From: Nannobrachium achirus
Taxonomy: Eukaryota > Chordata > Actinopteri > Myctophiformes > Myctophidae
Assembly: GCA_963921795.1 (NCBI GenBank)
Contig: OY997645.1
Span: forward strand, 23,233,918 to 23,297,917
Direction of reading: 5' to 3'
Length of the DNA stretch: 64,000 bases
In this document: positions 860 to 53,995 of the stretch, piece by piece
Position numbering within the stretch: the stretch's first letter is position 1
Layout of the letters: every line of letters begins with the position of its first letter
The notes under the pieces: model-generated
Told to the model about the DNA's origin: nothing
Databases searched by the model: none
What the model saw: the letters and a program-made list of their open reading frames with translations, nothing else
Made by a program: the position numbers and the translations under genes

Positions 860-909
860 AAATAGCTGATCTACATGCTTGAGGTTGTAGAATCTAGATC
901 TGCTATTTT
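860..909 (+). repeat. Palindrome copy, degenerate
   Basis: AAATAGCTGATCTACA on the left faces CTAGATCTGCTATTTTC on the right; the centre is eroded. The context (GTCCGGTGGAAAACC upstream) is shared with the short transposon at 19458-19656. Confidence 0.7.
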
Positions 910-1712
910 CATGACCTTTGTGTGACACTCTTGTATGATGAAATGGGACATTCATTTACAAAGAATACAATAAAAAGGTGAAATATGGACATAAGACAAG
1001 GTTTCTGACTCACAGCAACGATGAGTAGATTTCTGTGCTCTATTCTACTTTTTTGAGTACCCAGTACCCACTTTAAAGGTAACTTCTGCTTGAGCATGCT
1101 GAAAAACGTATATTCATTTGAGTGGCATTGTTTTTAGACACAAGCAGGAGCGGGCCCTCAAAACAGGGATTTGACCCATAAACCTTACTATGTTACTACT
1201 ACTCTTTGTTGAATGATAAGCCACTTTAAACCTGGCGTCCATATTTTAGGATATGTCAGTATAGGTGAAACCTATATATATATTTAAAATTGTCAATCGA
1301 TTGTGTTCCGGCTTGGATGGATGGAACAAACAAGGCATAGTTTTAGTTTATATTTTTCTGTAATACAATGAAAACACAGGTTTTAAAGAAAAATATACCA
1401 TGGCATTTATTTACATTATTTATTCCACTTGCAATATCCCCCGCAGCCCACCAGCGGGCCCGGTGCCACAGGTTAAGAATTAGGCTACTAGCCATTAAAG
1501 GACAACAATGAAAGGTAGCTCATACTTGTGACATTTGCAAGTATGCTGCAACTTTAGTGTCTGCACGTGGGACGCAGGGGCGGAGGAGGACGTATGGAGA
1601 GACAGAGGGAGAGAGAGCTCTTTGTTAGCTGGGCGATAAAAGGCTAGCTTGTCATTAACTGACATAAAGAGTCACTGAGTGAGCACCAAGGGCAGAGCGC
1701 CCTGACACCAAG

Positions 1713-1800
1713 GGTGTGTGTGTGTGTGTGTGTGTGTGTGTGTGTGTGTGTGTGTGTGTGTGTGTGTGTGTGTGCGTGTGTGCGTGTGTGCGTGCATGTG
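1713..1800 (+). repeat. (GT)n microsatellite with GCGTG interruptions
   Basis: Dinucleotide array; further short GT arrays lie at 1880-1901 and 1966-2005. Confidence 0.95.
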
Positions 1801-2128
1801 TATACATTGCAGGGGATCTTGTGCCACCTTTGTATCTGTGTTTTGTCTGTGAATTGTGTGAAATGTGTGCAATTTAAAGCATTGTGTGTGTGTGTGTGTG
1901 TCGCTGAGACCCCTCGCGTGTGTTGATTGTGCGCTAACAGATAGCATATCAGATAATGGGTCTAAGTGTGTGTGTGTGTGTGTGTGTGTGTGTGTGTGAG
2001 TGTGTAGATAACATGTCAGACAGTCCATGAAATGAATCAGTGAGGCGAGGTCTGGGTCGCCCTGCCTCCTGTTACTCAGCATCTGAATTTAACCCTCTCC
2101 TCTCCTCATTGCTCGCCAAGCCTCTCTC

Positions 2129-2344
2129 TAGGGCTGTCACGATTATGTCACTTTACATGGCGATTAATTGTCAAAAATAATTGCGATTAACGATTTAATT
2201 GTGGGGTTTTCTTTGTCGTTGAACATTGGAATACATGAATAGCAATGACATTTATGTTTGGCCTTTAGGCTTTGAAGTTGCACATGGCGGATAAGACAAA
2301 CAACCTAAATATGCAAAGAAATAAATAAGAGATGACGGAAATAG
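2129..2344 (+). mobile_element. hAT-type MITE, family TAGGGCTGTCACGATTAT, right half missing
   Basis: It starts TAGGGCTGTCACGATTATG and follows the copies at 28231 and 29421 through TTTGGCCTTTAGGCTTTG. It then stops at GGAAATAG, exactly where the palindrome begins in the complete copy. No right TIR was found. Confidence 0.75.
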
Positions 2345-3614
2345 TTATTGACTTTATACCTTTGACAGGCCTCCATATCTCTTCTCTATGTGTCATTCTA
2401 TCCATCCATTCTCCTTATTGTATCTGCCCATAACACTCTCCATCTCTGTCCACTATTTGTAGGACATTTCTGCTTTCCTTTTCCCATTTGTCCCTTTAAA
2501 TCTTGTAACATGATTCAGGGAATGGAATTGTGCGTGTGTGTGCATTTGTATGTTGTGTGTGTTAAGTTGTGTTGTGTTGTGTTGTGTGTCTGTGGCCCTG
2601 TGAGTGTTCCTACCTCCAGCCAGGCGTTGGGTATGCCTCCGCACTGAAGCAATATCCTCTCTCGCTCGCTCTGGTTTTGTCAGAATGTCTCTCTCTCCCT
2701 CCCTCTCCCTATCAGTTAGACCGGCTCCTGTGTTTTTTTCCCCAATCCATCATAAACACAGTTATTTCCTCTGTCACATCAATGTCAAAGCAAATTTGTT
2801 TTGTTTTTCTTTCCTTCTATTTTGTGCCGGTTACCTGGTTTACATTCTCACTCAAGAGAGAATGAAAAGAGAGAGCCCCCCCACAGCCCCCATTTTACAT
2901 CTATCATTTCATATGACAAGCAGACAAAGGCACAAGAGAGGGAAAGGTGGAGGGAGGAGGATAATGAGGAGAGAGAAAGGAGTGAGAGAGAGATGTGGGA
3001 AAAAGAGAGGAGTATGTCAACACAGCCAGGTGGAGAGGAGGGATAGAGAGAAGAGACAGTTGGCAATGTTAGTATTGTTAGATGGCAATCATGGCAGGGT
3101 GGTTCCTTCATTACAAACCATGATGCTGCTCCTGTAATGTTCTCTCTCTCTCTCGGCTATTCGTGGGGCCAGGGCATACGCAAGTGCATAATGCTTATCA
3201 AATACGCTACTTTGAAAGGTTCACGAGGGCAGACGCTATTCATATTTTATGTCCGACAGCAGACGCCGTATACGTGGGTTACAGGTAGAACACAGCACTG
3301 GGTGTGTGTGTGTGCTGCGTTTCCTGGTCAAGCAACAGAACCAGTGAGGGAAGTACAATATTTAAAAACACTTATCTGGTCAATGAATAGTTGGCATGAG
3401 GAAGTGACACTTAATCCATGACATGATGAGGTCTGTGCGTGTGCGTGTGCGTGTGTGTGCACCCGCGTGTGTTTGAGCGCACGGCTGCACTCGCACAAGG
3501 ACATGGCGTAAATAAGCCTTCGTCAGCAGATCTGTTTGACTGGCTGACTTATTGACTTGTCGAGGCGTGACTGGGTGAACCTTTCGTGTGTGTACATGAA
3601 TCTTTTGAAATTGA

Positions 3615-3742
3615 GTGTGTGTGTGTGTGTGTGTGTGTGTGTGTGTGTGTGTGTGTGTGTGTGTGTGTGTGTGTGTGTGTGTGTGTGTGTGTGTGTGTGT
3701 GTGTGTGTGTGTGTGTGTGTGTGTGTGTGTGTGTGTGTGTGT
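3615..3742 (+). repeat. (GT)n microsatellite, 128 bp
   Basis: Perfect dinucleotide array. Confidence 0.98.
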
Positions 3743-51700: not shown

Positions 51701-52913
51701 TGATTTTTACAACCCTGTTAAGAAACTCATTAAATGCTAATCCCGCGTATACTCGCTAAATATTTACCGATGTCCGCTGTGCTGATCCCGGGTATACACG
51801 CGATATATACTGCATATACAGTAAAGTCGATTAGCCTTACCTTGCGGTCCCAGCTATCCATTGTGCATCGGTAATGGCCACGATTTGTTTACAACGCACC
51901 TCCGTGTGCATGCGAAGTGACGCTGCTCCATAGAAATCCATTGATCTTGCAATCTTTAGTCTTCATTTACTTGAAAAAATACATTTTGATCTCAAGGTTG
52001 GCATATTTCCAGCTAAATCTGCAATCGTGTGGCGGCCGCCATGACACTTTCACGTCAACACACTTTTCCGGGACTAGATCCAGGTCAGAGTTGAAAAAAG
52101 TAAAGTGACCAAAAATGAGACAAAATGCCGGCGCTCTGTGCAATTTAACCCTTCAAAGTAAGAGGCGCTAAATGAGTTGTTAAGAGGTTTCAGGTTGACA
52201 GCTCGCATCACGCCAAACCATGCTGTGATGTTGAAGGTCACATACTCATACATACTGCATGCTCCATGTACCTGCCTAAAACCTGGGTTAAAGATCTACC
52301 TCTATTGCATTACATGCACTAGGAAACACTGCTGCATACGACACAGAAGCTACAGACACTCTGCGGTACATGTCATGATGAGGGCCATCCTGGTACTTAT
52401 AGGAACCAGCTAACAGGCTAGCATTCCTACCAGAAAGGTATAATTTAAGATCCGTAGTATAACCCTTAAATAGTTACACATATTTTTCTACATATTTTGT
52501 TTCTTCTGGGTATTGTGTTTTATGCCTGGCAGTGTGAGCTAAATGTACTATTTTGGACATACTTGTATTCATGGCAACTCTGCAATTGCTGCAATACTGT
52601 GGCAAACGTTGCACTGTTGCCAGTTTTCTATCAATTTATATACATGGTATTAGGCCTATACGGCATATAGGATATGGTTAGGGTTAGTATGTAGTACTAG
52701 GCAGTATATCAGGGGACCTTACTAGATCAGTAGATTAGCTGAAGTTGGCTAGCATTCGGTTGTCAGTCTGGATCTGTCATTTGCCTCTGCAGAATTTGCT
52801 GCATGTTTGTTGGTTTTTCCCTTTCCCCTGTAACCTTGGCAACTGGCCCTGGGGCTTCACGGTCCCCAATCATCTGATATTGTTTTGGCAGCCATGCTGT
52901 CCAGCCTAATTGT

Positions 52914-52994
52914 GACACACACACACACACACACACACACACACACACACACACACACACACACACACACACACACACACACACACACACACAC
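52914..52994 (+). repeat. (CA)n microsatellite
   Basis: Perfect array followed by a short second one to 53030. Confidence 0.97.
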
Positions 52995-53411
52995 ATTGTG
53001 ACACACACACACACAGACACACAGGCACACTCATGGCCAGCCGTGCATGCACACAGACACAAATTGTACTTTGATTTGACGAGGTGCTATACAGGGGGTA
53101 CAGGATACAGGATATTGGTGGGCTCAGGGCTGGTCTCCAAAGTCTGGTATATATCATACACACACCCTAAATATGATCAAGAGAGGGAGAAGGAGAAAGA
53201 GAGAGAGAAATGCCAGATCTTCAGAAACAGAGCCTAGTGTTCACCAAGGACAGGTTGGTCTGTTCTGTTCTGTTTCATTCTCCTATCTGTAAAGGTCCTT
53301 GCTGTCCCTGTGCCAAACTCATTTTGTACAGAAGGAACAGAGGGACTCTGGAAGACGTGGTCCATGGGCTATTTATGCCAACTAAGGCTGTTTGTGATCA
53401 ATACGTCTGCA

Positions 53412-53642
53412 TGGGGCGGCCTTAGCTGAGTGGTTATTGAGCCCGCCTGGGGAGCCAGAGTGCCTGGTTGTCCCAGGTACGATTCTAGGCCAGGCCAACA
53501 ATGTGGATGTGTGTCCCTGAGCAAGACTCTTATAACCCTTAATTGCTCCCAGAGTGCCGTAGAATCCAGTGGCTGCTCAATGCTCTTAGCTCTTATTGGA
53601 TGGGTAAATGCAGAGGATGAATTTCACCTATATGTAGAATAT
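53412..53642 (+). mobile_element. tRNA-derived SINE, diverged
   Basis: GGGGCGGCCTTAGCTGAGTG is a tRNA-like 5' end with an A-box (TAGCTGAGTGGTT). A degraded B-box (GGTACGATTCT) follows at about 53475. The body CCCTGAGCAAGACTC ... TTAATTGCTCCCAGAG and the end GATGGGTAAATGCAGAGGAT are typical of a widespread fish SINE. It runs directly into the MITE at 53645. Confidence 0.68.
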
Positions 53643-53644
53643 TT

Positions 53645-53995
53645 CACAATTATTACATAATCGTGATTATTTTTCATAATCGTCATAATCGTTTCCATGT
53701 TGAAAAATGTTCATTTAAAAAAAAAGTCAAAGATAGTGGAAAGTAGACGCGCTGTGAGCTTGTAGATCGGCTATTTCCACTATCAATGATATTTTTGAAG
53801 TATAAAGTTGTCAAATATGTCAGTAATTTCTTTGTATATTTAGGTTATGTGTCTTATCTACCATGTGCAACTTCAAAGCCTAAAAGCCAAACAGAAATGT
53901 AATTGTCAACGACAAAAACACAATTAAATCATTAATCGCAATTATTTGAGTGACAATTAATCGTCATGTAAAATGTCATAATCGTGACAGCCCTA
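53645..53995 (-). mobile_element. hAT-type MITE, family TAGGGCTGTCACGATTAT, reversed, left end trimmed
   Basis: The right end is ATCGTGACAGCCCTA. The left end lacks the first nine bases (starts CACAATTATTACATAATCG), so no target duplication can be checked. Palindrome remnant at 53732-53784. Confidence 0.85.
53732..53784 (+). repeat. Palindrome copy, left arm shortened
   Basis: GATAGTGGAAAGTAGACGCG, CTGTGAGCTTGTAGATCGG, CTATTTCCACTATC; the outer flanks still pair. Confidence 0.85.

Follow-up and report, generated by a model that had tools for sequence, protein, structure and literature searches.

The closest described counterpart of the sequences analysed here is found in Acropora corals, in which families of miniature inverted-repeat transposable elements (MITEs) with different terminal inverted repeats (TIRs), the CMITEs, have a 75-base internal region in common, whose origin is given as unknown and for which a role in transposition was suggested (PMC2872659). 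Here we describe a palindrome of about 71 bp, referred to as the core, that recurs inside MITEs along a stretch of 64,000 nucleotides from the fish Nannobrachium achirus (contig OY997645.1, positions 23,233,918 to 23,297,917; hereafter the window) and in its genome assembly. Its hosts are similar to the CMITEs (PMC2872659) in keeping a conserved internal region across families with different ends, and this region is more conserved between families than the ends are. The CMITEs are about 100 bp long, flanked by TTAA (piggyBac type), end in a CC[C/T]T motif and are estimated at ~1600 copies in one species (PMC2872659), whereas the present hosts are of the hAT type, have arms of ~80-310 bp and occur in a genome with 156,651 exact core arms. 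In addition, neither "palindrom" nor "hairpin" occurs in the text of that paper (PMC2872659), whereas the common part here is a hairpin. A first-pass annotation of the window knew of no description of such a module, which is too strong for the general idea, given the CMITEs (PMC2872659). No description of this hairpin was found in the literature searched, which left most subscription journals and the repeat databases outside its scope, and six sequence strings gave no matches in the literature text searched; the hairpin may be catalogued within individual repeats.

A common centre with unrelated flanking parts is also seen in CORE-SINEs and other short interspersed nuclear elements (SINEs) with central domains, the spread of which is thought to have occurred by template switching. 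These are retrotransposons, whereas the elements described here are DNA transposons with a near-perfect hairpin, which may by analogy be regarded as the MITE counterpart of the central domain of SINEs with unrelated heads and tails. Angel and related teleost inverted-repeat elements, said to have been described by Izsvak in 1999, are reportedly high-copy sequences with strong hairpins, for which hairpin-based amplification was proposed; they are similar to the present hosts as high-copy fish MITEs with strong hairpins, and we know of no centre common to different families among them. Foldback-type elements (Tetris, Galileo, and Tm1) have long inverted repeats and a similar structural dynamism, whereas the hairpin here is a small centre and not a terminal repeat, and in most hosts the two arms, away from the junction and the termini, do not match as inverted repeats. 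Spy transposons insert without duplication between AAA and TTT, a target pattern that the AAAA...TTTT ends seen here resemble. To our knowledge, neither mitochondrial hairpin elements nor bacterial repetitive extragenic palindromes (REPs) form a common centre inside transposons. The mitochondrial hairpin elements of yeast (PMC4478555) and sponge (PMC2800124), as well as the REPs, are similar to the present hairpin as short palindromic repeats that spread, and unlike it in being organellar or bacterial.

In this study, the hairpin was found close to the dyad in seven groups of hosts between which no common arm sequence was detected, and it has been multiplied together with these hosts. The feature is real and unusual. 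A common internal module was already known; the hairpin form, the occurrence in hAT MITEs and the very large scale set the present case apart.

Results

Occurrence of the core in the window and the genome

A profile hidden Markov model (HMM) was built from 27 hairpin cores, all from outside the window, and the reversed window served as the control. The HMM matched within 90 bases of all 23 positions at which the first-pass annotation had placed the palindrome, at E<=0.01 for 20 of them (the other three, at 9570, 16650, and 26592, gave E values of 0.038, 0.075, and 0.63, respectively), and at all four positions that had been given as weak traces (E 0.11 to 3.8). After merging, 32 matches in the window reached E<=10, of which 21 reached E<=0.01; the corresponding numbers in the reversed window were 3 and 0. 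These results confirm the annotated palindrome, several of the listed copies being single arms or centre-deleted. Five matches were located beyond the listed positions (32337-32373, 42404-42420, 26158, 50124, and 52200), the last three of which are at chance level.

In a genome-wide arm search of the kind that had been suggested, an exact 19-base arm occurred 78,207 and 78,444 times, 156,651 in total, in the 1.66 Gb assembly, while the reversed-pattern control gave 0. The genome would accordingly contain roughly 10^5 cores or more. In a sample of 267,019 bases, which consisted of the window, L004, and L009-L028, 129 arms were found at <=4 edits (59 of them exact), as compared to 5 in the reversed sequence; this sample is core-enriched, since L004 and L009-L020 were taken at known exact-arm places and L021-L028 at arbitrary places. 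No Rfam match above the gathering score was obtained in the window, and one 22-base pattern gave no matches in viral contigs.

Two tandem arrays in the sample contain core arms. At L019:5325-5683, a 33-bp unit built from the core arm (GATCTGCAAGCTCACAATGTG...) is repeated 10.9 times with 99% match within an H8-like MITE, apparently a satellite born from the hairpin. At L028:2349-3180, 185-bp tandem units, several with the right core arm, adjoin GGGGACCCCC-rich hAT-like sequence.

Structure of the hairpin and its transmission as a unit

The intact core is ~71 bp long in several families and commonly reads AAAATAGC...GCTATTTT, bordered by TG and CA, respectively. All five copies tested fold into one long hairpin (-40 to -58 kcal/mol, z -14 to -18), and four of the five have the same single mismatch, at arm position 9, where one arm reads C and the other A. 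The inner core types differ by family (GCGTCGC, GCCTCGC, GCATCGC, and GCGGCAC).

The asymmetric stem mismatch is common to five of eight family consensuses. When counted by host side, the position-9 C was observed in 6/9 H2a versus 1/13 H2b, in 4/8 versus 0/6 on the two sides of H3 (H3a first), in 4/4 H7b versus 0/6, and in 2/2 H8b versus 0/4; H4, H6, and H9 exhibited no clear side preference, and H1 had A on both sides in 42/46. Since five of the eight consensuses have the same stem mismatch, these sequences indicate that the hairpin was transmitted as one piece, with both of its arms. Across the genome, H2 copies have the loop in one orientation (GTT) or the other (AAC), as though the centre were being inverted.

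Host families and their ends

Clustering of the outward flanks yielded distinct host clusters, from which ten host families were named H1-H10; the 267-kb sample also contains many single-member flank clusters. The host ends seen for H2, H3, H7, H8, and H9 are hAT-like TIRs (TAGGG../CAGNGG..), and those of H4 (TGTCGGGTGG) are not clearly of the hAT type. Among the ten families, target duplications were resolved in four (H2, H7, H8, and H9). All are of 8 bp, rather than the TTAA of piggyBac-type elements: exact for H9 (CATACATC), H2 (GTTGTGAG), and H7 (ACTTAAAT), and 7/8 for H8 (TTGGGTGG/TCGGGTGG). H2, H7, H8, and H9 are therefore hAT MITEs, on the basis of 8-base target duplications together with hAT-like ends. 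The H9 family is young, its 40 scored copies being 98-100% identical over their full length. In L009 and L010, four near-identical H7 copies are located ~2-3 kb apart, resembling a segmental tandem duplication.

These results support the proposal that one module, located close to the dyad and at a constant position within each family, occurs in MITEs whose ends differ. That the host ends are unrelated was upheld by the flank clusters, with three pairs to be corrected. The CAGGGGTCTTCAAC (H3) and TAGGGATGGGATGGGAC (H2) hosts have common sequence adjoining the palindrome; the TAGGGATGGG (H2) and TAGGGCTGTCACG (H9) hosts have common terminal sequence; and the GAGAACCACTG and GCTGACATAGAAA hosts have ~20 common bases beside the palindrome and were pooled as one family, H1.

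Links between families and the mosaic structure of H2

Flank comparison gave scores of 26.9-30.5 among H2, H3, and H10, as compared to 14.0-16.2 for their own reversed controls and a maximum of 28.1 for the all-pair control. The next named-group pairs among the best 45 of 1326 cluster pairs were H3b with the L028 array (26.4) and H1a with H9 (24.3 versus 17.6). Whole arms were compared among the nine families H1-H9, those of H4 and H5 having been trimmed manually. In these 306 comparisons, H9 and H2 were linked over the outer half of one arm out to the ends (best z 7.5; other arms 3.4-4.6), and H2 and H3 beside the core (z 7.0); the remaining cross-family pairs gave z<=2.9, within reach of shuffles. 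With H2, H3, H9, and H10 counted as one linked group, the ten families form seven groups, between which no common arm sequence was detected.

H2 is thus a mosaic, H3-like beside the hairpin and H9-like at its termini. H2 and H3 have a common arm and yet differ in their inner core type. The mosaic indicates that MITE parts recombined, in this case with more than the hairpin, in agreement with the suggestion in the first-pass annotation that parts were exchanged between MITEs.

These links bear on the possibility that all hosts descend from a single hairpin-bearing MITE, the outer parts of which diverged by mutation without exchange. The common arm of H2, H3, and H10 and the common termini of H2 and H9 would be expected from such descent, whereas the arms of H1, H4, H5, H6, H7, and H8 show no cross-homology above shuffles while the hairpin is nearly identical, and recombination is needed for the H2 mosaic. 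We therefore regard a single ancestor as very improbable.

Inverted flanks at the borders of the hairpin

The first 8 outward bases on the two sides of the core had a mean identity of 4.9, as compared to 2.5 with the right flanks shuffled (maximum 3.7 in 1000 shuffles), among 38 copies that are not independent. At least four identical leading bases were found in 11 of 12 hosts or single copies, the representatives of which were picked and typed by hand, versus 12% between hosts. The borders thus carry family-specific inverted flanks of 4-13 bp. They were rejected as a mere outer part of the common module, since the families have only about the first 2-3 bases (TG...CA) in common and the remainder is family-specific.

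Inverted flanks, the kept stem mismatch, and the presence of one hairpin in many families would all be explained if a broken end finishing in the hairpin had folded back and primed its own copying, giving rise to a symmetric two-ended MITE. The whole-arm comparison of arm against arm agrees with such a birth in H2, H4, H6, H7, and H9 (z 3.4-7.1). The inner arms, away from the junction and the termini, do not: they are non-homologous in H9, H3, H4, H7, and H8 (z -0.5 to 0.7), which accordingly lack the long inverted terminal repeats that span a foldback element, and homologous only in H2 (z 4.2) and H6 (z 2.4). Snap-back birth of whole MITEs is thus disfavoured for five of the seven families, and it is hardly credible as the general origin.

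The core at hAT transposase loci and in dispersed families

All 150 of the hAT dimerisation-domain matches scored in the genome, among 1653 candidates, were above the cut-off. At 15 of 16 hAT transposase loci, no core arm was found at <=3 edits; for 12 of these loci, the sequence read on the 3' side covered only 800 bases. At the exception, L060, the arms lie in H5-type and, by eye, H6-type repeats. At this locus (G000:C10:21024693), H5 right-arm pieces flank ~2 kb holding the hAT transposase domain, as if a transposon had inserted into an H5 copy.

The hAT-like ends and duplications of the hosts would suit an origin of the arms as regulatory or transposase-binding sequence of autonomous hAT elements that their deletion derivatives have retained. 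This origin was rejected, since 15 of the 16 loci read showed no arm and the arms at L060 lie in H5- and H6-type repeats; we give it very little weight.

In the core-enriched sample, a core lies no more than 350 bp from 42/66 and 24/28 segments of the two largest dispersed families, respectively. This proximity is compatible with a benefit for amplification and is no proof of it.

Filled and short sites

To the extent that the copies sampled represent their families, the hairpin looks ancestral in the families tested. Queries holding the core, which are biased towards core-bearing copies, found it in 40/40 scored copies each for H2, H9, and H4. With H2 patterns, centres of 52-82 bases were counted 1009 times and centres of 0-30 bases 76 times, and the reversed controls gave no match. 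On visual inspection, core letters are retained in most of the short centres, and about a dozen are reduced to short A/T-rich runs.

Core-free queries of joined flanks, with 40 copies scored for each, yielded 17 junction-spanning matches for H2, 17 for H4, and 9 for H9. Every H4 copy of at least 96% identity over one flank ends at the junction, and all 17 junction-spanning H4 matches are only 69-85% identical; 31 H9 copies end at or near the junction. Of the 43 junction-spanning copies, 26 were read (12 H2, 8 H4, and 6 H9). Clear core letters are kept in 3 of the 12 H2 junctions, one is A/T-rich, and three have also lost host bases; L050 and L054 have the same junction with host bases lost. 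Core letters remain in six of the eight H4 copies, the exceptions being L081 and L079, and at least TTTC of the right arm remains in five of the six H9 copies, the exception being L089. None of these copies is a convincing empty site for H2, H4, or H9, although some of the H2 copies and one H4 copy are ambiguous. The short-junction copies may be explained by centre deletion, and a core-free H2 allele may exist.

A core-free parent was also considered for H8, for which exact junction counts gave 2974 of the short core-bearing form and 1004 of the long-form flank. It was rejected, since of three long-form copies read, L055 carries the core, L056 an arm remnant, and, by eye, L057 a right-end remnant.

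Origin of the shared centre

We favour, with somewhat better than even confidence, the explanation that the core is a palindromic central module of hAT-type MITEs, exchanged between families through repair or recombination and amplified as its hosts transposed. A transposon that was broken or had lost internal sequence would be repaired by copying a hairpin-bearing element, so that the hairpin enters a new host or new ends join the old centre. Strand switching, which is known for quasipalindromes during replication or repair, would then keep the arms matched and extend the match 4-13 bp into the new host, and hairpin-bearing founders would multiply well. Strand switching at the hairpin would account for both the matched arm changes and the inverted flanks. 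Among family-fixed substitutions in the outer 28 bp, 6 are in both arms and 11 in one arm (5 of these being the shared mismatch), with H5 and H9 represented by consensuses of one copy each; by our estimate, well under one such paired change would be expected by chance coincidence. Together with the inverted flanks, the paired changes indicate that matching of the arms, and its extension, preceded the expansion of each family. A continuing correction of the arms within H2 was rejected, since arm changes in this family are mostly one-sided and only 1 of 11 pairs clearly covaries.

That pattern within H2 and the single-copy consensuses in the arm-change count weigh against exchange and strand switching, as do several further observations. 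Core letters are retained in only 14 of the 26 junction-spanning copies read; in five of the 12 H2 junctions, GCCAA is followed by 6-11 T or by TGTTTT, and this in turn by GGC; and the H4 copy L079 reads AAACTAGTTTTG, without core letters. No host copy clearly predating the hairpin was found in the families searched, so that insertion and repair are indistinguishable. None of the hAT loci examined is a known partner of these hosts, the next two dispersed families are near a core in 3/18 and 0/12 segments only, and the searches cover a single fish genome, the 1.66 Gb assembly.

Some of these observations would be expected if the hairpin itself were mobile, inserting without direct target duplication into the centres of short palindromes, such as the hairpin tips of MITEs, and then being multiplied by the MITE. 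The family-specific inverted flanks would arise from a palindromic target, and the unit of ~71 bp in several families and the TG...CA ends common to most groups agree with such insertion, as do the five H2 junctions and L079, which may represent an unfilled site at which CTAG is duplicated. However, the short H2 copies have runs of differing length and agree with the loss of all but the right-hand T-run, and L079 is one diverged copy that could equally have arisen by deletion between CTAG repeats. Inverted flanks are also expected from strand switching at the hairpin, and no coding partner is known. Self-insertion leaves the matched changes in both core arms unexplained, as well as the H2 mosaic, whose common stretch is larger than the hairpin. 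The tiny fold-back element inserting into hairpin centres that had been envisaged was thus not borne out in H2, H4, and H9, in which the lack of a convincing empty site also left no junction to be inspected for a target duplication, and we consider self-insertion unlikely.

A more tentative proposal, doubtful as it stands, is that the 71-bp hairpin is a second-order mobile element without seen coding capacity. It would be copied into the broken or cruciform centres of unrelated transposons, would repair and lengthen itself by strand switching, and would ride each host's transposase to very high copy number.

Features of the window

The copies read in the window are listed in Table 1. The region at 7220-7660 is a long inverted repeat, with ~120-bp arms in many offsets, and dominates the inverted-repeat search.

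Table 1. Core copies, host elements and target duplications located in the window
Feature	Position	Evidence
Degenerate core, H4-type host (TGTCGGGTGGAAACC ends)	860..909	E 0.0037; flank 917-1022 matches H4a
Complete 71-bp core, H1 host (GCTGACATAGAAA type)	6933..7003	E 1.6e-21; flank cluster 0
Centre-deleted core, H3 host (begins CAGGGGTCTTCAAC at 8055)	8197..8247	E 5.9e-10
Eroded core, H8-like host, 13-bp inverted repeats either side	9558..9598	E 0.038 for 9570-9598
H8 host MITE (CAGAGGTG...CCACCACTG)	10425..10816	Sequence read
H8 target duplication TTGGGTGG/TCGGGTGG, 7/8	10417-10424 + 10817-10824	Sequence read
Core within H8 host	10594..10649	E 1.4e-14
Weak core trace, H4-type host	10882..10909	E 0.12
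Core with one good arm, H1-type host (GAGAACCACTG end)	11472..11522	E 1.6e-8; flank cluster 0
Centre-deleted core, H1 host	11848..11898	E 3.1e-11
Single arm	12719..12749	E 1.2e-5
Weak trace	13059..13110	E 3.8, alone at chance level
Strongly centre-deleted core, flanks TATTGTG/CACAATG	14170..14190	E 0.0029
Weak trace, H3-like flank	15344..15366	E 0.52
Single arm	16166..16204	E 2.7e-7
Centre-deleted core, ACTTTTACTTT-type host	16650..16671	E 0.075
Core, H4 host	19537..19581	E 3.2e-8; flank cluster 4
Left arm only; right flank resembles H5 right arm	21352..21381	E 1.1e-5
H2 host hAT MITE	23408..23868	40 scored genome copies
H2 8-bp target duplication GTTGTGAG	23400-23407 + 23869-23876	Sequence read
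Core within H2 host	23529..23594	E 1e-20
Core, flank weakly H7-like	25961..26031	E 5.9e-17; 31-base match
Centre-deleted core, H2 host	26592..26609	E 0.63; H2b match 26589-26497
Left arm, H9 host	28462..28501	E 2.9e-5
Core	28803..28862	E 2.5e-8
H9 host hAT MITE (TAGGGCTGTCACGAT...GTGACAGCCCTA); exact 8-bp duplication CATACATC both sides	29421..29821	
Intact core within H9 host	29640..29708	E 6.6e-24; fold -46.4 kcal/mol
Clear core trace, unlisted in the first-pass annotation	32337..32373	E 2.8e-5
Centre-deleted core, H4-type host	37925..37962	E 1.4e-5
Intact core, H3 host	39561..39631	E 8.4e-22
Two core arms far apart (disrupted centre), GTG/CAC flanks	42267..42420	E 1.7e-6 + 0.042
Partner arm of the 42265 copy	42404-42420	Not among the listed positions
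Weak core-centre trace, ACTTTTACTTT-type host	50956..50981	E 0.11
Right arm, H9 host, reverse orientation	53746..53776	E 1.1e-7

Discussion

How MITE families arise, and why few of them succeed so strongly, is an open question in the field. The present results suggest that small transposons can exchange a shared centre and still retain ends of their own. Since one short centre is present in several high-copy families, including the two largest dispersed families of the sample, a benefit for amplification can be tested, and modular exchange in MITE evolution, as in that of SINEs, becomes testable as well. The many centre-deleted copies, in turn, provide a natural record of how cells handle near-perfect hairpins.

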